NCBI GenBank assembly: GCA_024696945.1
Contig: JAILGF010000225.1
Span: 1-62,701, forward strand
DNA from: Lachnospiraceae bacterium
GTDB lineage: Bacteria; Bacillota; Clostridia; Lachnospirales; Lachnospiraceae
DNA length: 62,701 bases
Reading direction: 5' to 3'
Positions within the stretch are counted from its first letter, which is position 1. Each line of letters opens with the position of its first letter. This document shows positions 21,171-31,705 of this stretch, piece after piece. The translations under genes and the position numbers were made by a program. The notes under the pieces were generated by a model. It had not been told where the DNA came from, made no database searches, and worked only from the letters and a program-made list of their open reading frames with translations.

Positions 21171-23885
21171 ATGAAGAAGTTCTTCAAGGCTCTTGCACTT
21201 GTACTTGCTCTTACTCTTGTGATCGGATCAATTCCTGTTTCCGCAGCTATTGATTTCGCATTTACAAAAGATAAGAAAGTCATCTACATTGGTGAAGCTC
21301 AAGGAACCAGAACAGATGAAGAAGGCAATGTTATTAAGTGTAAGACAAAAGAAAGCTACACTCTTTCAAAGTTCATTACTAACTTTGACTCAGATACAAT
21401 GAGATCAAAGCTTGTAAGCTCAAATGAAAACGTTGTAGCTATCGACGGCCATAAGGTTGTTGCCAAGGGTATTGGTACAGCTAAGGTGGACGTTACAATT
21501 CTTGATAAGGATACCAAGACCGATATCGGTGGTACCACTCTTTCTATCAAGATTGTTGTTAAGAAGAATGCTACATCCGTTCCCGTAAAGGTAAAGGACG
21601 CTGAGGGAAATGAAATTGAGGATGTTGCAAACTACAAGTTCGCTGCTAACACTGATTACATCTTCACTCTTACACGTAAGGATGATGAAGGTAACAGAAT
21701 AGACACTGACAAGCGTAAGCTTGAGTGCGACAGCGACAAGGTTTCTATCAAGGCTGGCGAAGCTGGTATTATGTACAGAGTAAACTTCGCTGAGGCTGGT
21801 GAGTACACTCTTAAGGCTACCGCTTTCCAGAGTACAGTATTCCCGAATCCTACAGTTGACCCTGTAGAAATCAAGGTTAAGGTTGGTTATGAGGCAGTTG
21901 CAGTTGATCAGTATTCACTGAACCAGGCAGTTGTTACATTCGAGACCAACGTTGCTAACCCTAGCAAGGATCTCTTCAAGCTTTACACCAAGGTTGTTAA
22001 CAACGGCGAGGAGAAGCTTCTTGACGATTCACAGGTTAAGGGTGTTGAAGTTCTTGCAGATGACAAGACAAAGGTTGTTGCTACATTTGAGGCTGACTTC
22101 GTTGGCGGCAGAGAGTATTTCTTATACTACGGCGAGAAGGAAGTTGGAAGCTTCGTAGCAGCTTCTGTAAATGCTGATTCTGTTGCTAGAGTTGAGATCA
22201 TTGCTGGTCAGGAATTCGAAGTAAACAAGACAGGTCAGCTTAAGTACAAGCTTTTCAATGACAAGGATGTTGATATCACAAGCGCTTACGGAAAGAGCCT
22301 TAACGGTACTATTTCAGCAGAGCTTGTTGACAAGACAGATACAACTTCTAACATCTGGGGTCTTGATGTTGTACTTGGTAAGGAAAACACCAACTATGAT
22401 GTTAAACTTACATATTCATGGTATGATTCAACAGGTATTCCTCAGTCTAAGGAAGCTACCGGCGTTATCAGATGTATCCCTCAGAAGGTATTTGAGAGAA
22501 CAGACTTCAAGGGCGTTATCGGAAGTTCTAAGACTATCTTAGGCGGAGACGGCAAGCTTAACGGCGAGTGCACAGATTCACTGTTCGCATACGGCGATGC
22601 TGATACTCAGCTTCAGGTTGCTATCGGATACACATTAAACGGAAACGTTACATATGATGTAATCGATGGTGCTGGAATCCACAACAACACTAACGTTTAT
22701 GATAGTTACAAGGTTACTAGTGCATCCGAGAGAATTATCATGGTAGTTGGTGGTTACAAGCTTTCTGCAACAGGTGAAGGCACAACCAACATCGTAATTT
22801 ACGGTGTTAAGGCTGGACAGGCTGATCAGGTTGTAGGTGTTGTAAGTGTTACTGTTAATCCTAAGAGAACTCTTGCAGACTTCAAGGTTTCTGCATCTAA
22901 GCTTGCTCTTAACATGGCTAACGCAGAAGATGCTATCACATTCGATCTTGTTGCTCTTGACCAGTATGGCGTAGAGATGGCTAAGAACGTAACTGTAAAG
23001 CAGATTTATGCTGATGCTTATACAGGTCCTGTTGCTGATGGTGCTGTTCAGGGTACTGTTGCAGCTGTTCCTGGAAACAAGGCTGAAATCACTCTTAAGG
23101 CTGCTAACCTTACTCCTAACGGACCCGATGATAAGACAACTCTTATCTTCGAATTCGATTGCGAAGGCAAGAAGTACAGAATTTCTAACCTTGATTGTGG
23201 TTATGCAACAACAGCTGACAGACAGCTCCTTGATATCAAGGGCGAGTCAGAGCTTAAGACCGGTCTTACCTCTGGTTCAACAGCTAAGACAACTACTATC
23301 GCACTTAAGGGTCTTGCAAACAACAAGTATGCAGTATCCGGTGCAGCTGTAAGCTTCTTCGCAGGAGCTCCTGCTATTGATAGAGTTGATACTTCAGCTA
23401 GATTCGTTTACACAGTTAAGAAGGACGGCGTTCTTCTTAATGGTCAGAACGCTAACTTCGTTGGCAATACATTTACCAGCGTTGTTAAGGGTACAGGTGC
23501 TGCTTCCGGTACAGCTATTAAGCTTGCTGCTGGTACATACGCAGTAGACCTTTACGAGTTCAAGACAAGCAGCGATGGAACATTCGCTACACCTTACATG
23601 ATCGATTCTGCTTCCTTCAAGGTAACAGATGATCAGGCAGGTCTTACATTTGAGAAGGTTAAGATCGAGGGTATCGGCCATAACCTTACTTCAGCTGCTG
23701 ACCTTGCTGGATGCTTCAAGTTTAAGTTTGATAACAACGATGTAACCGCAGCTGTAGTTATTGATGCTACATTTGCAGGTGACGGATCTTCAGCATACGT
23801 TAAGTCTGCTAAGTACGTTGGAACCAACGCTGAACTTGGTACATTCGAAGTAACCGTAGCTATCGACCTCGTTGTTAGAAAGTAA
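21171..23885 (+). CDS. Large secreted Ig-like protein, candidate S-layer or surface protein
   Basis: 904-aa exported protein: signal peptide MKKFFKALALVLALTLVIGSIPVSA, then an all-beta body. A Big_2-like domain is visible near residues 40-120 (SSNENVVAIDGHKVVAKGIGTAKVDVTI) and similar segments recur mid-protein (GGYKLSATGEGTTNIVIYG, ASKLALNMANAEDAITF). No SLH, LPXTG, choline- or other wall-binding motif is visible, so anchoring is unexplained. Codon use is extremely biased (CTT, GTT, AAG, AAC, GCT), and promoter and AAGGAGG site are strong, all pointing to an abundant product. It forms its own unit with a terminator. The surface-layer role is inference. Confidence 0.75.
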   Translation: MKKFFKALALVLALTLVIGSIPVSAAIDFAFTKDKKVIYIGEAQGTRTDEEGNVIKCKTKESYTLSKFITNFDSDTMRSKLVSSNENVVAIDGHKVVAKGIGTAKVDVTILDKDTKTDIGGTTLSIKIVVKKNATSVPVKVKDAEGNEIEDVANYKFAANTDYIFTLTRKDDEGNRIDTDKRKLECDSDKVSIKAGEAGIMYRVNFAEAGEYTLKATAFQSTVFPNPTVDPVEIKVKVGYEAVAVDQYSLNQAVVTFETNVANPSKDLFKLYTKVVNNGEEKLLDDSQVKGVEVLADDKTKVVATFEADFVGGREYFLYYGEKEVGSFVAASVNADSVARVEIIAGQEFEVNKTGQLKYKLFNDKDVDITSAYGKSLNGTISAELVDKTDTTSNIWGLDVVLGKENTNYDVKLTYSWYDSTGIPQSKEATGVIRCIPQKVFERTDFKGVIGSSKTILGGDGKLNGECTDSLFAYGDADTQLQVAIGYTLNGNVTYDVIDGAGIHNNTNVYDSYKVTSASERIIMVVGGYKLSATGEGTTNIVIYGVKAGQADQVVGVVSVTVNPKRTLADFKVSASKLALNMANAEDAITFDLVALDQYGVEMAKNVTVKQIYADAYTGPVADGAVQGTVAAVPGNKAEITLKAANLTPNGPDDKTTLIFEFDCEGKKYRISNLDCGYATTADRQLLDIKGESELKTGLTSGSTAKTTTIALKGLANNKYAVSGAAVSFFAGAPAIDRVDTSARFVYTVKKDGVLLNGQNANFVGNTFTSVVKGTGAASGTAIKLAAGTYAVDLYEFKTSSDGTFATPYMIDSASFKVTDDQAGLTFEKVKIEGIGHNLTSAADLAGCFKFKFDNNDVTAAVVIDATFAGDGSSAYVKSAKYVGTNAELGTFEVTVAIDLVVRK

Positions 23886-23915
23886 TTTCTGAATAATAAG
23901 TCGTAAGTTTACATT

Positions 23916-23950
23916 GAAGAGGGCTTCCTTTCGGAGGCCTTCTTCTTTTT
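23916..23950 (+). terminator. Strong terminator after the secreted-protein gene
   Basis: 13-bp stem 23916-23928 / 23933-23945 (two G-T pairs) with a TTTC tetraloop, then TTTTT. Confidence 0.92.
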
Positions 23951-23955
23951 ATGGT

Positions 23956-23984
23956 TTGACTTTTAATTTTATATGTGGTAGTAT
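23956..23984 (+). promoter_or_regulatory. Promoter of the carrier-protein/acylation operon
   Basis: TTGACT (23956-23961), 17-nt spacer, TAGTAT (23979-23984). It begins 6 nt after the preceding terminator and 40 nt before the carrier-protein start. Confidence 0.6.
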
Positions 23985-24023
23985 TAAAATCGATTAAAAA
24001 TGCACAGGAGGCAAGGATTTATT

Positions 24024-24254
24024 ATGGAAGAGAAAGTATTGGAGTTTTTATCATCGGAGTTTCCTCAGATTGATTTTACCGCATCTGATACACTGGTAGA
24101 TGACGGCATTTTAGATTCATTGACAATTGTAAGCATCATATCTGCTTTAAATATGGAATATGACATTGATATACCTTATGAGGAAATTATCGAAGAGAAT
24201 TTCAACTCTGTAGAAGGTCTTGCAAAAATGGTAGAACGCCTTCAGGATGAATGA
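24024..24254 (+). CDS. Acyl/peptidyl carrier protein (DltC-like)
   Basis: 76-aa acidic four-helix carrier protein. The phosphopantetheine attachment serine is in DGILDSLTIVSII (about residue 36). Size and the FPQIDF...LVDDGILDSL pattern resemble DltC and stand-alone carriers rather than fatty-acid AcpP (which has GADSLDT). Start: ATG 24024 behind CAAGG; an earlier start at 24000 would put the RBS inside the gene. It is first in an operon with an adenylating ligase, so it most likely carries the acyl group the ligase activates. Confidence 0.88.
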   Translation: MEEKVLEFLSSEFPQIDFTASDTLVDDGILDSLTIVSIISALNMEYDIDIPYEEIIEENFNSVEGLAKMVERLQDE

Positions 24255-24300
24255 TACAGTACCAATCGAAGAATATTAACAATACGAGGCAGAGCATAAA

Positions 24301-26343
24301 GTGTTTGATTCGCTTGTAAAAAAGATAGGATTATTAGCAGAGCAACAGCCTGAAAAACTCGCTGTTGCTTTTAAGAAGGAACAGCTTTCTTATTCTGAGC
24401 TTTTTGAAAGAATAAGAAGGTATTCTTTTGTTCTTAAAAAACATGGAGTATCAGCAGGAGACAGGATATGCCTTTCAGCTGTCTCAAAGCCTTCATTTGT
24501 AGTGACTTACCTTGCTATTGAATACTGCCATGCAATTCCGGTATTTCTTGACAAAAGCAGTACTGAGGAAAACATGCTTGTGGTCTACAGGGATTCGGAA
24601 AGTTCCTTAATGATCACCGATAAATTAAGCAGGAATGATGATCCAACTGTTAAGATATTAAGTTATAAGAGCCTGGCAGAGTTGATCGATGAAGAAAATG
24701 ATAGTAATAAAGACAAAAATTACGAAATTCCTATCGAGGACTCTCTTGCCGAGCTCTTATTTACCACAGGGACTACATCCAAACCAAAGGGAGTTATGCT
24801 TAGCTACAAGGCTGTTTATAACATCCTTCAAAATACAATAGATGGAATCGGAATAAGAGAGGATGACATAATCCTTCTTCCGCTTCCCTTAAACCATTCA
24901 TTTGCCTTAAGGGTTCTTCGTGCTTACCTATATAAAGGTGCTACGGTAGTTCTTCAGAATGGCTTCACATTTGCAAAGGAAGCGGAAAACAATATATCGA
25001 TGTACAATTGTACGTCGATGGCATGTGTACCGACTTCGTATGAGGTGATGAGATCACAGATGCAGGATGACTTCCAAAGGGTACTTGGCGGTTTGAGATA
25101 CATTGAGTTCGGTGCAGGATCTCTTTCTATAAGACAGAGAAGGGATATTACGGCACTTCTTCCAAACGTTGCCATATATAACGTATGGGGAAGCTCCGAA
25201 ACAGGCGGAGCAATTTTCTGTGATGTATGTAAAGTCGTAAAGGAAGAGGAAAATATTGGTGCATTGGGAATACCTCTCAAGGGAAAGGTTGAAGTAAAAT
25301 TCCTCGACACGGAAGGAAATGCTATAGACAGCGATGAAGCGCATCCCGGACGCATGGCGCTCAAGGGTGATATGCAGATGTCAGGGTATTGGAACGAACC
25401 GGAAAAGACAACCGATGCCATAAGGGACGGCTGGATACTTACCGGTGATATGGCATATCAAAAAAACGGATATGTATTTATGCTGGGACGTGCGGATGAT
25501 ATTATAAATGTTGGCGGAGATAAGGTTTCTCCGATAGAGGTTGAAAACTTAGCCGGACAGTATAAAGGTATACATGAATGTGCCTGTATAGGAGCTGAGG
25601 ATACAGAAGGAATGCTCGGGCAGATGCCGGTATTATTTACGGTGGTAAACAGCTCCTACAATGAGGACGAGTTTAAGCAGTATCTTGGTTCTTGTATGGA
25701 GAAATACAAGATACCGCGTGTTTTTGTAAAACTACAGGAAATACCGAGAAACAGAATGCAAAAGATAGACAGGAACGCTCTTCGCAAGCTCTGGGAGAAC
25801 AGGAGCAGCCTAGCCCTTATGAATCCGGTTATTGACAATATTCTTTCAAGAAGAAGCGTAAGAAAGTTTACAGATAAGGAAATAGACCCTGAAATACTCA
25901 ATCTTATTTTAAAATGTGGTTACAACGCACCCAGCGGTAAAAATCTTCAGACATGGAGATTTACAGTTCTTACTAAAGAAAAGGATATTGAGGCACTGAA
26001 GGCCGCCACTAAGGAGACTGCCGAGAAAAACAAAATCGGTTTCTTCGGCTTTGAGAATCCGAAGGTACTGATTTTGGTGTCAAATGATAAACGTAATGCT
26101 GACGGATGCCAGGATGCTTCGTGTGCCGCAGAGAATATGATGCTGGCAGCACTTTCCTTTGGTATTGGTTCAGTATGGCTGAACCCCCTTATGACCATCC
26201 GTGATAAGGAGCCGGTAAAGAGCGTGCTTGACAGCTACGGTATTCCGGAACAGCATACCGTTTGGGCTTCGGTTGCAATGGGATATCCTGCAATGGATAC
26301 TATTCCCATGAAGAAAAAGGAAAACGTGATCCATTTCGTATGA
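24301..26343 (+). CDS. Acyl-adenylate ligase fused to a nitroreductase domain
   Basis: 680-aa fusion. Residues ~1-500 form an ANL adenylation domain: phosphate loop LLFTTGTTSKPKG (152-164), NVWGSSETGG (294-303), TGDMAY (381-386) and catalytic Lys488 in RMQKIDR. Residues ~505-680 are a complete FMN nitroreductase fold (ILSRRSVRKFTDKEI, NAPSGKNLQTWRF, GIGSVWLN). The A4 region reads LPLNHSFALRVL without the Asp that binds the amino group in DltA and NRPS domains, suggesting a non-amino carboxylic acid. GTG start at 24301 with GAGG 11 nt upstream. It lies 46 nt after the carrier gene. What the nitroreductase does to the acyl group is unknown. Confidence 0.9.
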   Translation: MFDSLVKKIGLLAEQQPEKLAVAFKKEQLSYSELFERIRRYSFVLKKHGVSAGDRICLSAVSKPSFVVTYLAIEYCHAIPVFLDKSSTEENMLVVYRDSESSLMITDKLSRNDDPTVKILSYKSLAELIDEENDSNKDKNYEIPIEDSLAELLFTTGTTSKPKGVMLSYKAVYNILQNTIDGIGIREDDIILLPLPLNHSFALRVLRAYLYKGATVVLQNGFTFAKEAENNISMYNCTSMACVPTSYEVMRSQMQDDFQRVLGGLRYIEFGAGSLSIRQRRDITALLPNVAIYNVWGSSETGGAIFCDVCKVVKEEENIGALGIPLKGKVEVKFLDTEGNAIDSDEAHPGRMALKGDMQMSGYWNEPEKTTDAIRDGWILTGDMAYQKNGYVFMLGRADDIINVGGDKVSPIEVENLAGQYKGIHECACIGAEDTEGMLGQMPVLFTVVNSSYNEDEFKQYLGSCMEKYKIPRVFVKLQEIPRNRMQKIDRNALRKLWENRSSLALMNPVIDNILSRRSVRKFTDKEIDPEILNLILKCGYNAPSGKNLQTWRFTVLTKEKDIEALKAATKETAEKNKIGFFGFENPKVLILVSNDKRNADGCQDASCAAENMMLAALSFGIGSVWLNPLMTIRDKEPVKSVLDSYGIPEQHTVWASVAMGYPAMDTIPMKKKENVIHFV

Positions 26344-26389
26344 GAGGATTGAGGCGTATAAATTAGTTGGATCGATTGAGGAGAACAAA

Positions 26390-28885
26390 GTGAAAGACTA
26401 CGGGACTGTAAGAGTAAGTGTAATAATCCCATTCAATAAAGGCGATGAATTCCTGACGGATTGTCTTAACAGCCTTTCCGCACAGGAATATACGGATTAT
26501 GAGGCGATAATCATAGCCGATCATTATGAGGGAGATATAAGAAAACTCATAGCTCCTTTTGAGGATAAAATAAATATAAAACTACTTGAGTTAAACGGTG
26601 AGAAATGCGGTGTGGCAGCTACCAGAAACGCAGGACTTGACAAGGCTCGGGGTGAATTTGTATACTTTCTTGACGCGGACGATTATATTTTCCAGGATGC
26701 AATCAGGACCATGGTTGAAACCTCCGACGACACAAACGAAGATATGGTATACGGAAAAAAGCACTTTACATATTTCCGTAGGGACGTGTTCCTTCCTATA
26801 TATATAGAAAAGCGTGAAGCACTTATCGCGCAGAAATACCTGGAAAATGGCGGAACTCCGGCCGGCATGGACGATATCTATTCAGAAACATCCTTTGATG
26901 CAGATTCCGACAGCGACAGTGATAATGATGACAATGATGACGATGAGGATTCTGAGGACATGGCATCCGGGGAATCCGAGGATATGGGTGATGATGAAAA
27001 CGATCCAGAGGATGGCGACGAAGAAAGCTGCGCTTCGGGAAAAGTTTCCATATATGACAGATTCCCCAGGCTGAAGGATTTTGACACACAGGAAGAAAAA
27101 GACCAGTGGCTCGTAAGGCATTATAACAGAGCAAGACGAAAGGCCGTTAAAAGACTGATCTATAAAAAGAAAAGGTTTCGTAATATCTCCATACTTCATA
27201 TGCTTATCAGAAGGAGCGTCATAGAGGGACTTCAGCTCCGCTTTGATGAGAACATGAAGTATTATTCCGATCTGCCTTTCCTTGCAGCACTTCTTAATAA
27301 AGAAGATCTTCACATAAGAAAAAGATTTGCTTCGCATTATATAAAGCGAAGACATCAAGATATAGTAAATCATCCGGCACTTACGCAGATTCAGGATGAG
27401 GGACGCTTTGATGAGATGACCAGAGCCTTCGAAAAGATGCTTGAGATTTCCGGTGACGAGGGTTATGTAAGGAGGGCCACAGAACATCAGATAGCCTTCT
27501 ACTGTTCGGGATATTTCCTGAAAAAAGTTAAAAGGAGCGAGGCTAAGAGGTGGAAGAACGAACGCTTCAAAAAAATGACCGAGCTTACTCAGGGTGTATC
27601 GGATGAAACCCTGAAAAAGATGGATCGCTGGCGCAGAAATGCGGTTAAAGCTGTAAGAGCGGGCGACCTTGAAAAAAGCATCAGGGTCATTACAAGAAGA
27701 CTGATATATAAAAAGCTCATAAAACGGCTCAGAGGTAAAAATACCTGGAACCGACATTTGTACGTACAGTATCTGAAAAGAAAGAAGGTATCGGACAATG
27801 TCATAATGTTTGAGACCTTCTTCGGAAAAAGCTATTCGGACAGTCCGAAGTACATTTATGAGTATATAGGTAAGAATTATCCCGGAAAATACAAATTTGT
27901 ATGGGTTCTTGACAAAAAAGTCGATCTTCCGTACGGCGGAAAGATAATAAAACGGTCCGGCAGGAACTATATGTATTATCTGGCAACATCGAAATACTTT
28001 GTGTTCAACGTCCGCCAGCCACAGTGGTTTAAGAAGAGAAGCGGTCAGGTTTTCTTTGAGACCTGGCACGGAACACCGCTTAAACGTCTCGGATTTGACT
28101 TGAAGGATGTGTTCGGGGCAGCACCGAACAATAAGAAGAGGATAAATAAAGCCACAAAGGGCTGGGATTATCTTCTTTCTCCTAATGAATTTTCTACAGG
28201 CTGTTTTAATACCTGCTTCCTGTTCGACAAAAAGAAGATCGTGGAATACGGATATCCGAGAAATGATATCCTTCATAATGAGGAAGGAAAAGAACTGGCG
28301 GTAAAGGTAAAAGAAAAGCTCGGAATTGATCCGGGTAAAAAACTTATATTATATGCGCCCACTTGGCGTGATGATGAGTGCTACGGACCGGGACTTTATA
28401 AGTTTGAACTAAAGCTTGAACTGGACAAGATGAAGGAAGCTTTGGGCGATGAATACATTGTTCTTTTAAGAACCCATTACTTCATTGCTGATTCTGTGGA
28501 TACTGCAGCGTACGGCGGGTTTGCGGTAAATGTAAGCCGTTATGACGATATTGCCGAGCTGTATCTGATATCCGATATACTAATAACCGATTATTCCTCC
28601 GTATTCTTTGATTTCGGAGGACTTAGACGGCCGATGCTTTTTTATACCTATGATCTTGACAGGTACAGGGATATCCTCCACGGGTTTTATATGGATATGG
28701 AGCAGGAGGTTCCGGGCCCCATGCTTTATACAACCGAAGAAGTAATTGACGCCATTAAGAATATAGATGACATCTCTTTAAAATACAAGGATAGGTACGA
28801 GGAATTTTACCGGAAATACTGCAGCCTTGAAGACGGAAGGGCTGCTGAGAGATGCGTCAAGACTATATTAGGAACAGAAAATTAA
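26390..28885 (+). CDS. Bifunctional GT2 glycosyltransferase / CDP-glycerol glycerophosphotransferase
   Basis: 831-aa protein. The N-terminus is a GT-A family 2 fold (VRVSVIIPFNKGDEFLTDCL, nucleotide-binding FLDADD at 94-99), interrupted by a very acidic Asp/Glu/Ser stretch (about 160-217) before the GT2 remainder. Residues ~470-831 are a TagF-like glycerophosphotransferase with ETWHGTPLKRLG (His560), YAPTWRDD, LLRTHYF (His696) and DILITDYSS. Such enzymes extend poly(polyol-phosphate) teichoic-acid-like chains. GTG start at 26390 with GAGGAG at ideal spacing. It supplies the likely acceptor polymer for the acylation genes around it. Confidence 0.9.
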   Translation: MKDYGTVRVSVIIPFNKGDEFLTDCLNSLSAQEYTDYEAIIIADHYEGDIRKLIAPFEDKINIKLLELNGEKCGVAATRNAGLDKARGEFVYFLDADDYIFQDAIRTMVETSDDTNEDMVYGKKHFTYFRRDVFLPIYIEKREALIAQKYLENGGTPAGMDDIYSETSFDADSDSDSDNDDNDDDEDSEDMASGESEDMGDDENDPEDGDEESCASGKVSIYDRFPRLKDFDTQEEKDQWLVRHYNRARRKAVKRLIYKKKRFRNISILHMLIRRSVIEGLQLRFDENMKYYSDLPFLAALLNKEDLHIRKRFASHYIKRRHQDIVNHPALTQIQDEGRFDEMTRAFEKMLEISGDEGYVRRATEHQIAFYCSGYFLKKVKRSEAKRWKNERFKKMTELTQGVSDETLKKMDRWRRNAVKAVRAGDLEKSIRVITRRLIYKKLIKRLRGKNTWNRHLYVQYLKRKKVSDNVIMFETFFGKSYSDSPKYIYEYIGKNYPGKYKFVWVLDKKVDLPYGGKIIKRSGRNYMYYLATSKYFVFNVRQPQWFKKRSGQVFFETWHGTPLKRLGFDLKDVFGAAPNNKKRINKATKGWDYLLSPNEFSTGCFNTCFLFDKKKIVEYGYPRNDILHNEEGKELAVKVKEKLGIDPGKKLILYAPTWRDDECYGPGLYKFELKLELDKMKEALGDEYIVLLRTHYFIADSVDTAAYGGFAVNVSRYDDIAELYLISDILITDYSSVFFDFGGLRRPMLFYTYDLDRYRDILHGFYMDMEQEVPGPMLYTTEEVIDAIKNIDDISLKYKDRYEEFYRKYCSLEDGRAAERCVKTILGTEN

Positions 28886-28892
28886 AGGATGT

Positions 28893-29909
28893 ATGAAAGA
28901 ATTTATTAAAAAATACTGGAAAGGCACCTTAAAGACGGTACTTTTCGTAGGTATTTTCCTTATATTGTTCTCATATGTTCAGGACATATTTGAACTGAAA
29001 GGTCAGGGCTACGGGAAGTACAGGTGCTTTAACTGGGAAGAAAGAAACGCTTTAAATGTCATCTTCTTCGGAAATTCCAGAACAAACAGAGGAGTTAACC
29101 CTGTTGTTGTCGATGAGATTGCAGGAACAAGGTCGTTTAACTACGGACTGCAGGGACTGAGAGCGAACCAGGTTTACTATAGGGTTGTGGATGCGTTTAA
29201 AACACAGAGCCCCAAGCTGATAGTGCTTGAATCGTCCATCTGTGTATCCGCAAGTGCCAGACTTGAGGAATCCTATGCCCAGCGTGCACTGGTTTCCCTA
29301 CCGCTTTCGGTGAACAAGGTTGAAGCGGCACTTGATCTGGGAGAGAATGATAAGAAGAAGGCGGAACTGATCCTGCCTTTGCTCAGATTCCATATGCGTT
29401 ACAGAGAACTTGAGGCTGTTGATTTCCGATATATAATGGACATTAATTCTGAGTATCCGTATATGAACCAGCCGGCTGAAGAGGTTATGGAGGTAAGCCG
29501 AGGATATACTCCATACGAAACCGATATGAGCCTCGAGGATGACGGAAAAGGCTTCTTTGATAAGGACTACTCCAAGATTACTAAGGTTAAGGCCCCCGAT
29601 GAGAAGCTGGAACGCTATTTTAAGATGATAGTTGATTATGCGGAAGAACACGGTGCAAAGGTACTGATACTGTCGATACCTTCCATGGATAAGAAAGAAA
29701 CTCCCAAGGATATTATTCCGCTGACAAATTATTTAAGACAGCTTTATGCTGATGATGAGAACGTGGCTTTTCTTGATGCGTCTGTCTGTATGAAGGACTA
29801 TGGACTTTCGTATGACTGTTACCATAATACCGGGCACTTAAACAGACTCGGAGCTAAGAAATTATCCGAATTTATCGGACAGTTTTTAAGGGATAATTAT
29901 TCGTTCTGA
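28893..29909 (+). CDS. Membrane-anchored SGNH-type acyltransferase partner (DltD-like role)
   Basis: 338-aa protein with one N-terminal transmembrane helix (about residues 13-32) and an extracellular SGNH-hydrolase-like domain. Block I is IFFGNSRTNRG (nucleophile Ser in GNSR) and block V is DCYHNTGHLNRLGA (Asp/His). It lies 7 nt after the glycerophosphotransferase gene and 10 nt before an MBOAT gene. SGNH plus MBOAT is the DltD/DltB or AlgX/AlgI arrangement for moving an acyl group onto an exported polymer. Sequence similarity to DltD itself is not obvious to me, so the role is by context. Confidence 0.8.
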   Translation: MKEFIKKYWKGTLKTVLFVGIFLILFSYVQDIFELKGQGYGKYRCFNWEERNALNVIFFGNSRTNRGVNPVVVDEIAGTRSFNYGLQGLRANQVYYRVVDAFKTQSPKLIVLESSICVSASARLEESYAQRALVSLPLSVNKVEAALDLGENDKKKAELILPLLRFHMRYRELEAVDFRYIMDINSEYPYMNQPAEEVMEVSRGYTPYETDMSLEDDGKGFFDKDYSKITKVKAPDEKLERYFKMIVDYAEEHGAKVLILSIPSMDKKETPKDIIPLTNYLRQLYADDENVAFLDASVCMKDYGLSYDCYHNTGHLNRLGAKKLSEFIGQFLRDNYSF

Positions 29910-29919
29910 AAGGATAGAA

Positions 29920-31512
29920 ATGAGTGTTACTTCGTTAAACTATTTCGGTTTTGTGGCGGTGCTGCTCCTTTTGTACTATATACTTCCGAAAAAATGCCAA
30001 TGGGTGATACTGCTGCTCGGAAGCATAGTCTTTTACCTGACCTATGACATCAGGTACTTTATATTCCTGTGTTCCTCGATACTTATAACCTGGCTGATCG
30101 CTCTGTTTATGCAGAAAAAGAACGACAGGCAGAAGGAGGAGCTTAAGGCGGAAGGACTTGATAAGGAGGGTAAGACCGCTATAAAAAACAGGTACAAGAA
30201 GAAAAAGCGCAGGCTTCTTGTGCTCAATGTCATAATACTTGTAGGAATCTTATATTTCTGCAAGTATACCAATTTTACACTTGATAATATTAAGGCATTA
30301 TCGAAGCTTTTTGGTTTTAAATTCAAAAAGCCGGAGGTTAATATAATACTTCCTCTTGGAATTTCCTTTTATACCTTCCAGGCAATAGGGTATATAGTTG
30401 ATGTCCAGAAGGAAAAGGTTACGGCGGAAAAGAATCCGTTAAAATACGCACTGTTTATTTCATTCTTCCCACAGGTTGTGCAAGGCCCTATAGCGAGGTT
30501 CAAGGATCTGGCTCCACAGCTTTCGGGAGAGCATAAATTTGAATTTAAAAATCTTGAGTTCGGTTTTGAACTGATGCTGTACGGTCTGTTCAAAAAGCTT
30601 GTGCTCGCAGACAGGATATCTGTTATTGTCAGTACGACGCTTGGGAATTGGTCAACCTTTGGGGGATTTGAACTTATACTTGCCATAGTTCTCTATTCCG
30701 TGCAGATATATGCCGATTTTTCAGGCTGCATGGACATTATTACGGGTGTGGCAAAGATGTTCGGAATAGATCTTTCAAAGAACTTTGACCATCCGTATTT
30801 CTCGAAAACCATACCGGAATTCTGGAGAAGATGGCATATTTCACTCGGAACGTGGTTCAAGGATTATGTATTTTTCCCGATATCCGTATCCGGCTGGTTC
30901 CAGAATCTAAACCGCAAGATAAGGAAAGGCATGGGTGCGGAAGCATCGAGGATTATCACCGGTATTATCCCGATAACGGTAGTGTGGTTCGTTACGGGCT
31001 TTTGGCACGGTGCCTCATGGAAATTCATAGCATGGGGCTTGTATCACGGGCTGCTGATCGCGCTTGGAATGGCTTTGGGGCCATATATAAACAAGCTTTG
31101 CGATAAGCTTAAGATGAAAAGGGACTGTTTCAGCTTCCGCCTGTTCCAGATGACAAGAACCTTTATTTTATGCTGTATAGGAAGAGTTTTCTTTATTTCG
31201 AACGGTTTAAAGGACGGCTTTAATCTTCTGGGTCATATCTGGACGCACAACGATCCCTGGGTATTGCTGAACGGAACGCTTTTTGACAATACAGGGCTGG
31301 ATGTTTACGATTACGTAATCGTTTTCCTTTCAATTCTTGTTGTATGGGCGGTCAGCATGATGCAGGAGAGGTTTAAGGTAAGGGAGAAACTGTCCGAACA
31401 GAACCTGGTATTCAGGTGGCTGATAGTTTATGCGGCAATATTCATCATCCTGATATTCGGAATGTACGGCGAGGGTTATGTAGCCAGTGATTTCTTATAC
31501 AGAGATTTTTAA
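29920..31512 (+). CDS. MBOAT-family membrane O-acyltransferase (DltB/AlgI-like)
   Basis: 530-aa polytopic membrane protein. The MBOAT signature includes FWRRWHISLGTWFKDYVFFPI and the catalytic His in FVTGFWHGASWKF; about ten or more hydrophobic segments are visible. MBOATs transfer acyl groups from a carrier across the membrane, in Dlt from D-alanyl-DltC. Last gene of the operon that starts at the carrier protein. No terminator is evident; the tRNA-Trp promoter begins 8 nt after the stop. Confidence 0.92.
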   Translation: MSVTSLNYFGFVAVLLLLYYILPKKCQWVILLLGSIVFYLTYDIRYFIFLCSSILITWLIALFMQKKNDRQKEELKAEGLDKEGKTAIKNRYKKKKRRLLVLNVIILVGILYFCKYTNFTLDNIKALSKLFGFKFKKPEVNIILPLGISFYTFQAIGYIVDVQKEKVTAEKNPLKYALFISFFPQVVQGPIARFKDLAPQLSGEHKFEFKNLEFGFELMLYGLFKKLVLADRISVIVSTTLGNWSTFGGFELILAIVLYSVQIYADFSGCMDIITGVAKMFGIDLSKNFDHPYFSKTIPEFWRRWHISLGTWFKDYVFFPISVSGWFQNLNRKIRKGMGAEASRIITGIIPITVVWFVTGFWHGASWKFIAWGLYHGLLIALGMALGPYINKLCDKLKMKRDCFSFRLFQMTRTFILCCIGRVFFISNGLKDGFNLLGHIWTHNDPWVLLNGTLFDNTGLDVYDYVIVFLSILVVWAVSMMQERFKVREKLSEQNLVFRWLIVYAAIFIILIFGMYGEGYVASDFLYRDF

Positions 31513-31520
31513 AAATGTTG

Positions 31521-31549
31521 TTGACAATCATTTGATTATGTAGTATTAT
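31521..31549 (+). promoter_or_regulatory. Promoter of tRNA-Trp
   Basis: TTGACA (31521-31526), 17-nt spacer, TATTAT (31544-31549); the mature tRNA begins 19 nt later. Confidence 0.88.
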
Positions 31550-31568
31550 ATTCTGGCTGGCGTAGTCT

Positions 31569-31641
31569 AGGGGTATAGTTCAGCTGGTAGAATAACGGTC
31601 TCCAAAACCGCAGGTCGTGGGTTCGAATCCTACTGCCCCTG
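31569..31641 (+). tRNA. tRNA-Trp (anticodon CCA)
   Basis: 73-nt tRNA. Acceptor AGGGGTA (31569-31575) pairs with TGCCCCT (31634-31640) with one T-G pair; anticodon loop CTCCAAA; T-arm GTGGG TTCGAAT CCTAC. The discriminator base is G and the 3' CCA is not encoded. It matches known Firmicute tRNA-Trp throughout. Confidence 0.97.
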
Positions 31642-31642
31642 T

Positions 31643-31676
31643 AAAAAAAGAATCGGGTACCCCGATTCTTTTTTTG
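31643..31676 (+). terminator. Terminator after tRNA-Trp
   Basis: AAGAATCGGG / CCCGATTCTT stem with a TAC loop, A-run before and T-run after, so it may also work on the minus strand. Confidence 0.92.
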
Positions 31677-31705
31677 TAAATCCGAATACAGAACAGGCGG
31701 CAATA

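Follow-up and report, generated by a model that had tools for sequence, protein, structure and literature searches.

A probable carrier-protein-dependent surface acylation cassette with exchangeable ligases in Lachnospiraceae

Contig JAILGF010000225.1 of Lachnospiraceae bacterium GCA_024696945.1, an organism of gut or rumen (positions 1-62,701; this whole stretch is called the window here), carries five co-directional genes on the plus strand, separated by short gaps of 46, 46, 7, and 10 bases. They encode an acyl carrier protein, an adenosine monophosphate (AMP)-forming acyl ligase fused to a C-terminal nitroreductase domain, a GT2/cytidine diphosphate (CDP)-glycerol glycerophosphotransferase (hereafter the polymerase), a membrane-anchored SGNH-type transferase, and an MBOAT acyltransferase (Table 1). 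This layout confirms that of an earlier reading of the same DNA, the original prediction, and Pfam scores bear out the identities it gave to the carrier, the fused ligase (AMP-binding 203.7 bits, AMP-binding_C 33.7 bits, Nitroreductase 92 bits), the polymerase, and the MBOAT. The SGNH protein it named matches no Pfam or NCBIfam family; its assignment is based on a predicted model whose nearest structures are DltD, at low similarity. We consider it likely that these genes, the polymerase excepted, represent a carrier-protein-dependent surface acylation cassette whose delivery part can serve different acyl groups.

Table 1. Features of the cassette and its upstream flank, in window positions
Feature	Position	Strand	Basis
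Terminator-like hairpin, 13-pair stem then T run, between upstream surface-protein gene and cassette	23916..23945	+	Consensus match only
Weak promoter-like site before carrier gene, TTGACT-17-TAGTAT	23956..23984	+	9/12 consensus match
Acyl carrier protein, 76 aa	24024..24254	+	PF00550 (PP-binding) 27.3 bits, cut-off 20.8; DSL motif
Phosphopantetheine Ser32 of carrier (codon)	24117-24119	+	Assigned by DSL motif
AMP-forming acyl ligase fused to nitroreductase, 680 aa	24301..26343	+	PF00501, PF13193, PF00881; 38-row alignment
Ligase pocket stretch, Ser200 (DltA: Asp) and Arg204 (invariant in ligase group)	24898..24912	+	Alignment
Nitroreductase domain, residues 514-662	25840..26286	+	PF00881 92 bits
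GT2 and CDP-glycerol glycerophosphotransferase	26390..28885	+	Glycos_transf_2 72.8 bits; Glyphos_transf PF04464 394.5 bits
Membrane-anchored SGNH-type transferase	28893..29909	+	27-sequence alignment; DltD-like model, N-terminal helix 2-32
SGNH Ser62	29076-29078	+	Invariant in 27 aligned sequences
SGNH His315	29835-29837	+	Invariant in 27 aligned sequences
MBOAT acyltransferase, FWRRWH 301-306, FWHG 361-364	29920..31512	+	PF03062 56.2 bits, cut-off 27
C-terminal acyl-shuttle motif FLYRDF, Tyr527 codon 31498-31500	31492..31509	+	Motif as in the excerpted text of PMC12148441

Gene content and co-occurrence

A profile scan of genome contigs returned 50 loci, most of them labelled Lachnospiraceae or other Clostridia, with two records labelled Chloroflexi and two labelled only "bacterium". 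Based on a six-frame profile scan of 62 sources, genes were then counted within 6 kb around 47 fused ligases, namely those of 45 of the 50 loci, the window, and locus L040. The loci left out are L111, L113, and L118, which are without the nitroreductase domain, L120, which is truncated by a contig end, and L121, whose two pieces fall below the 600-bit threshold. The carrier was found near 41 of the 47 ligases, the MBOAT near 38, the SGNH protein near 29, and a glycerophosphotransferase near 3; the first three were counted with profiles built from the same loci, which, together with L084, where no carrier is within reach, and L090, where none lies within 6 kb, weighs against the proposed cassette. 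The other rows without a carrier are L040, L103, L106, and L112. Nine rows have no MBOAT. Six of them (L072, L079, L086, L095, L103, and L106) are contigs with lengths between 3.3 and 12.8 kb, with MBOAT end pieces under the threshold in L072 and L086; the other three, L040, L112, and L119, have no MBOAT within reach. The 18 rows without an SGNH protein pool true absences and contig-end absences. Collectively, the core unit is the carrier, the nitroreductase-fused AMP-forming ligase, and the MBOAT, usually with the SGNH protein. Among viral contigs, 89 pattern matches were obtained and none was confirmed, and a non-exhaustive search of the open-licence literature yielded no account that we recognised of this ligase-nitroreductase fusion or of this carrier-fed MBOAT.

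Ligase pocket, ligase exchange, and the acyl group

The pocket of the ligase was compared by alignment with that of DltA, the ligase of the Dlt system, which esterifies D-alanine to teichoic acid. At the position of the amino-binding Asp of DltA, Ser is found in all 43 fused ligases read and in both ligases from polyketide synthase (PKS)/nonribosomal peptide synthetase (NRPS) clusters, and Asp in both true DltA controls; the claimed absence of this Asp therefore held when tested. Ser or Ala (Thr once) occupies the position in 59/59 ligases of the group. Four positions further, Arg is present in the same 59 ligases (43 fused, 2 PKS/NRPS-type, and 14 unfused), where DltA has Met and nine other ligases have Met or Leu. 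Moreover, pocket residues F201 and V205 differ between the fused and the near unfused ligases. The mapping relies on PheA position numbers, and the landing of DltA's Asp in the same alignment column was its only check. A predicted model of the ligase (mean predicted local distance difference test score, pLDDT, 87.4) matched feruloyl-CoA, malonyl-CoA, coumarate, and succinylbenzoate ligases as the best-ranked folds in the PDB.

Taken together, these data support the view that the window ligase activates an acid without an alpha-amino group. The alignment further suggests that Arg204 holds a negative group of the substrate, and a dicarboxylic acid held by this residue would be a tentative first guess, with the chances against it. 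Some observations run counter to this assignment. A distant ligase, L034 (208.7 bits), has Asn at the Arg position; the amino-acid domains 6p1j and PheA (1amu) also appear in the fold ranking, at ranks 19 and 24, so that the ranking leaves the substrate class undecided; and Arg204 is placed in the pocket by alignment rather than by a ligand-bound structure.

The ligases within the genus of the window are of several kinds. An MBOAT of this kind occurs in 17 of 24 genomes. In all 17, MBOAT and ligase share a contig, which for G008 is the one holding the end piece of the MBOAT; the carrier is also present in all 16 loci read. Type i, the fused Ser/Arg ligase, is found in G000, G008, and G012. Type ii is unfused, with Ala/Arg in the six read, and is found in seven genomes (G001, G003, G006, G007, G013, G015, and G018), among which the ligase and MBOAT of G003 were counted from genome searches without reading of the locus, its pocket not being among the six. 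Type iii, with Asp/Lys, is found in six genomes (G004, G010, G011, G014, G017, and G023), and type iv, with Val/Ser, in G016. The MBOAT of G016 is 57-71% identical to the type ii MBOATs and shares a starred tree group with them, but its ligase is only 20-22% identical to type ii ligases, which is the clearest sign of ligase exchange. The G016 cassette itself (L147, 5607-10894) has a hexapeptide acetyltransferase-like gene between ligase and carrier.

For type iii, the two ligases scanned pass an amino-acid adenylation model; against the DltA model, whose cut-off is 560, they score 255 and 291 bits. In 5 of the 6 loci, an Asp/Glu racemase gene is no more than about 1 kb away from the ligase; in the sixth, the contig begins with the ligase. 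No such gene was found in 76 other loci searched, a set that includes nine regions around tgt and some places fetched twice. All three racemases scanned pass the Asp/Glu racemase model, and two of them pass the cysteate racemase cut-off. Based on the Asp/Lys pocket, the adenylation model, and the nearby racemase, type iii cassettes probably transfer an acidic D-amino acid. L144, L145, L146, L148, and L150 hold such type iii cassettes with an Asp/Glu (cysteate-like) racemase and are candidates for acidic D-amino acid esterification. Since the carrier-MBOAT-SGNH part stays while the ligase changes, the cassette is probably a modular delivery system with swappable acyl groups, and the decoration probably differs between species.

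Solute transporters adjoin 4 of the 14 unfused ligases. Those at L046 and L102 belong to the DASS/citrate type (DASS/CitMHS), L111 has an Asp-Al_Ex permease, and at L103 a sodium:solute symporter shares one open frame with the ligase. Together with the pocket Arg or Lys of types i-iii, these neighbours favour acids with a second negative group. This inference is weakened by the fused ligases, among which a transporter (four kinds searched) was found only at L102 and L103, each time beside an unfused ligase, and by the symporter of L103 and the permease of L111, which need not carry dicarboxylates. No biosynthetic gene recurs among the annotated neighbours of the fused ligases, many neighbours being without annotation. 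Collectively, the acyl group of the window is probably a non-amino, possibly dicarboxylic acid that is adjusted by the flavin domain.

The nitroreductase domain scores 92 bits against the PF00881 cut-off of 23.5 and keeps the family positions R-x-S-x-R (residues 517, 519, and 521) and P-x-G-x-N (544, 546, and 548) as invariant columns of the 38-row alignment. It is present in 46 of the 50 loci found by ligase-part patterns, a count biased towards fusions because the patterns were derived from fused ligases. A ligase joined to a C-terminal flavin mononucleotide (FMN)-binding nitroreductase fold is described for FbiB, whose C-terminal domain uses FMNH2 to reduce the enolpyruvyl double bond in dehydro-F420-0 according to the excerpted text of PMC6450877. 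In contrast to the ligase studied here, FbiB is a gamma-glutamyl ligase rather than an AMP-forming acyl ligase, and acts on another substrate without a carrier. FbiB thus demonstrates that reduction of an enoyl acid is within the range of a ligase-linked nitroreductase fold. The redox modification of the acyl group that the original prediction had considered possible is supported as a possibility.

The fusion also occurs away from MBOATs. In L040 and L112 ([Clostridium] polysaccharolyticum), it lies beside ketosynthase (KS)-carrier and NRPS-type genes, and an MBOAT was looked for in both loci and not found; in L119, it is accompanied by KSIII, short-chain dehydrogenase/reductase (SDR), and carboxyltransferase genes. 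Since KS/NRPS-type clusters without an MBOAT contain the same fusion, the flavin domain seems to act in preparing the acyl group rather than in transferring it, and the ligase-nitroreductase pair seems to prepare an acyl starter, whatever the later user. The NRPS/PKS-type clusters extend over 3-14456 in L112 and 1772-10457 in L040. Elsewhere, a separate second nitroreductase gene lies directly 3' of the fused one (L101, 12069-12638; L114, 12073-12669).

Alternatively, the nitroreductase domain could be a passenger that dimerises the ligase or reduces unrelated compounds, the acyl group being transferred unchanged. Nitroreductases are often promiscuous, and the unfused cassettes of L111, L113, L118, and type ii appear complete without the domain. 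However, the retention of the domain in most loci (with the bias noted above) and its invariant family positions speak against a passenger, and the differences at F201 and V205 are those expected if fused and unfused ligases have different substrates. We regard this alternative as fairly unlikely. A second alternative is that the acyl group on the carrier goes into the synthesis of a small molecule or lipid, and that the MBOAT and SGNH protein use acetyl-CoA independently. It draws on L040, L112, and L119, with their KS, NRPS-type, and KSIII genes, and on the PatA-type tail of the MBOAT (see below). In contrast, the carrier and ligase stay with the MBOAT group while ligases change, and a family scan limited to the five genes and two upstream genes showed no KS or NRPS gene; separate pathways are improbable on this balance.

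Transfer proteins and comparison with known systems

The MBOAT carries the conserved-histidine motifs FWRRWH and FWHG, which align to DltB, and it matches the DltB structures 8jem and 6bug. For comparison, module MBOATs were defined as that of the window and those with a ligase within 4.5 kb (n=48). All 48 end in F-x-Y-x-x-[F/Y] at the C-terminus, 29 with F and 19 with Y. Both DltB controls are without this shuttle motif, and at both true dlt loci a short frame after dltD ends in it. With these two loci as positive controls, no DltX-like short frame ending in the motif was found within 23886-31705 of the window; a short frame matching the motif was found in 18 of the 50 related loci, one being an MBOAT end piece and the others judged chance by eye. 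When 63 MBOATs were placed in a tree, one group of 48 rows (starred in the tree) took in 45 of the 48 module members, from fused and unfused loci together; this group is separate from the two DltB proteins and from an AlgI-like group.

The predicted model of the SGNH protein has a mean pLDDT of 86.5 and a predicted template modelling score (pTM) of 0.87. In the PDB, the top six matches to this model are all DltD, led by 6pfx_B with an E value of 4.8e-6, but the template modelling (TM) scores are low, at 0.32-0.38. Ser62, His315, and Asn317 are invariant across the 27 aligned sequences. In a search of the PDB by sequence, only the designed protein Top7 fell below 0.001, and this match was taken as chance. 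Two findings count against the proposed cassette: three module MBOATs, two in L076 and one in L097, lie outside the starred group and are AlgI-like, and the block-V Asp of most SGNH homologues is replaced by Asn in the window protein. The contig of L076 also holds L037 (4008-18125), a Butyrivibrio locus with two AlgI-like MBOATs, a fused ligase, an ABC exporter, and an FkbH-like protein.

The cassette resembles Dlt in that an AMP-forming ligase would charge a carrier and an MBOAT and an SGNH-like protein would pass the acyl group outward, the SGNH model being nearest to DltD, and the Dlt logic originally predicted (activate, carry, export, transfer) is supported. In contrast to Dlt, the cassette ligase is without the amino-binding Asp and is fused to a nitroreductase, the shuttle motif lies on the MBOAT itself instead of on a DltX-like frame, and the gene order differs and varies. 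The predicted difference from DltA-C-B-D in sequence is likewise upheld by the Dlt cut-offs tested for ligase, MBOAT, and carrier, which are missed: the ligase reaches 124.3 bits with the DltA model TIGR01734 (559.85), the MBOAT 154.8 bits with the DltB model TIGR04091 (375), and the carrier 30.6 bits with the DltC model NF003464 (68). Within the genus, no DltA over cut-off was found in eight genomes searched and no DltB in five.

If the genes were instead a true Dlt system that has diverged, with D-alanine esterified to teichoic acid, this would explain the shared logic and folds, the resemblance of the carrier, MBOAT, and SGNH protein to Dlt parts, and the presence of TagD, hence probably of CDP-glycerol, in the genus. 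However, the sub-threshold ligase, MBOAT, and carrier and the consistent replacement of Asp by Ser argue against it. Furthermore, G356 and G384, which belong to other genera, hold a true dlt operon besides a ligase of this group, and in G356 carrier, MBOAT, and SGNH genes lie beside that ligase. A genuine Dlt system is highly improbable, and D-alanine transfer was rejected on the pocket residues and the Dlt cut-offs tested. The same two lines of evidence support the non-alanine acyl group of the original prediction.

PatA/PatB and AlgI-type acetylation share with the cassette the F-x-Y-x-x-F motif at the MBOAT C-terminus and the SGNH partner. As described in the excerpted text of PMC12148441, the shuttle motif sits on DltX where the donor is a carrier and on the MBOAT itself where the donor is an acyl-CoA, and non-Dlt pathways are without a carrier protein. 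Here, in contrast, a carrier and a ligase accompany the MBOAT; by sequence, the cassette unites a predicted carrier protein with a shuttle motif fused to the MBOAT. The loading step has a parallel in cispentacin biosynthesis, where, in the excerpts of PMC10698177, the stand-alone ligase AmcH loads a dicarboxylic acid, 2-oxoglutarate, on the stand-alone carrier AmcB, but in a natural-product pathway with no MBOAT described alongside. AmcB is the best NCBIfam match of the window carrier, although the score of 30.9 bits falls short of the cut-off, which is 80. The cassette works like Dlt without being a Dlt member and is best classed as a form of MBOAT-SGNH surface acylation that has a carrier and whose ligases can be exchanged.

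Polymerase, acceptor, and proposed function

The polymerase has the Glyphos_transf domain, a TarF/TagF-type feature (394.5 bits), and misses the TarF equivalog cut-off (NF041712, 370.4 bits vs 550). Near fused ligases, a glycerophosphotransferase occurs in the window, in L073 (the contig of G012), and in L099 (71 bits). G012 has its cassette at the corresponding site, flanked by the surface-protein gene and tgt, but there the orientation is reversed and the gene order is different. In G008, tgt is adjoined by the polymerase gene, with the acylation genes on other contigs, where MBOAT and ligase are convergent and a Wzy-like protein adjoins the carrier. In G022, the polymerase is beside tgt in a genome that shows no module-type MBOAT and no fused ligase, and G006 and G019 have neither polymerase nor cassette at the tgt place.

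The original prediction had made the polymerase part of the system, so that the five genes would be one operon making and decorating its own teichoic-acid-like polymer. Co-direction and short gaps favour this reading, and a polymerase orthologue (at least 72% identical) occurs in 4 of 24 genus genomes, 3 of which hold a fused ligase as against none of the 20 others (Fisher p 0.002, ignoring kinship). However, the four genomes are close kin, the tgt of the other three being 89-91% identical to that of the window, although G016, at 89%, is without the polymerase. Polymerase and cassette are also unlinked in G008, occur apart in G022, and differ in order and orientation in G012. Because a glycerophosphotransferase lies near only 3 of 47 fused ligases, we regard the polymerase as a neighbour rather than a core part, and its core membership was rejected on this linkage; the single operon is possible but unlikely. 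Scattering and loss of linkage among homologues, which the original prediction itself had named as grounds against it, are thus seen in part, for the polymerase only, the carrier and MBOAT remaining linked at the frequencies given above. Overall, the observation behind the original prediction is confirmed and its interpretation partly supported: its Dlt logic, non-alanine acyl group, and possible redox step are supported, and the membership of the polymerase in the system is not.

The predicted teichoic-acid-like acceptor is plausible in the genus, where TagD is over its cut-off in 8/8 genomes searched, but its link through the polymerase is not borne out. The genome of the window also has a second polymer locus (L130, 2845-10978, on C185) with three glycerophosphotransferase proteins and a TagGH-like ABC exporter; this locus adjoins ybbR- and cdaA-like genes. 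A glycerol-phosphate polymer is a possible acceptor in this genus. Several cassettes elsewhere have glycosyltransferase, Wzy-like, and ABC exporter genes around them, and the acceptor therefore probably varies between cassettes.

The cassette is followed by tgt and yajC. Its upstream neighbour (21171-23885), called the surface-protein gene here, encodes a 904-aa protein with no Pfam domain and only a sub-threshold NCBIfam match, and in several other genomes of the genus a homologue of this protein is found in the corresponding position near tgt. The promoter-like site in Table 1 is no evidence of a promoter, because such sites are no commoner in the region (23 found) than in shuffled sequence (mean 19.8). 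In the polymerase, a long acidic insert rich in Asp, Glu, and Ser separates the GT2 domain from the glycerophosphotransferase domain (about 26880-27050 of the window).

For the surface acylation cassette, the following route is proposed. As its families and pocket suggest, the ligase would adenylate a carboxylic acid without an alpha-amino group and load it on the carrier, and the fused FMN domain may change the oxidation state of the acid before or while it is carrier-bound. The MBOAT would take the acyl group from the carrier, and its histidine would pass it to its own Tyr527 in FLYRDF at the outer face; the motif and histidines are observed, and the transfer step is modelled on the PatA/DltX mechanism. 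The membrane-anchored SGNH protein would then accept the acyl group on Ser62 and transfer it to a surface polymer, here perhaps a glycerol-phosphate polymer. In its boldest form, which we consider unlikely as a whole, the proposal is a third surface acylation arrangement that is carrier-fed, has its shuttle fused to the MBOAT, and uses species-specific ligases to deliver acidic D-amino acids or dicarboxylic acids, that of the window being reduced or oxidised by the flavoenzyme on the carrier, and thereby adds negative charge, an effect opposite to that of D-alanylation.

If the cassette works by the route proposed, the pairing of carrier with DltX and of fused shuttle with acyl-CoA, as given in the excerpts of PMC12148441, would not hold for a widespread set of Clostridia, which includes many Lachnospiraceae from gut and rumen. 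Moreover, related commensals could vary a surface group that may be readable by phages, immune lectins, and antimicrobial peptides.

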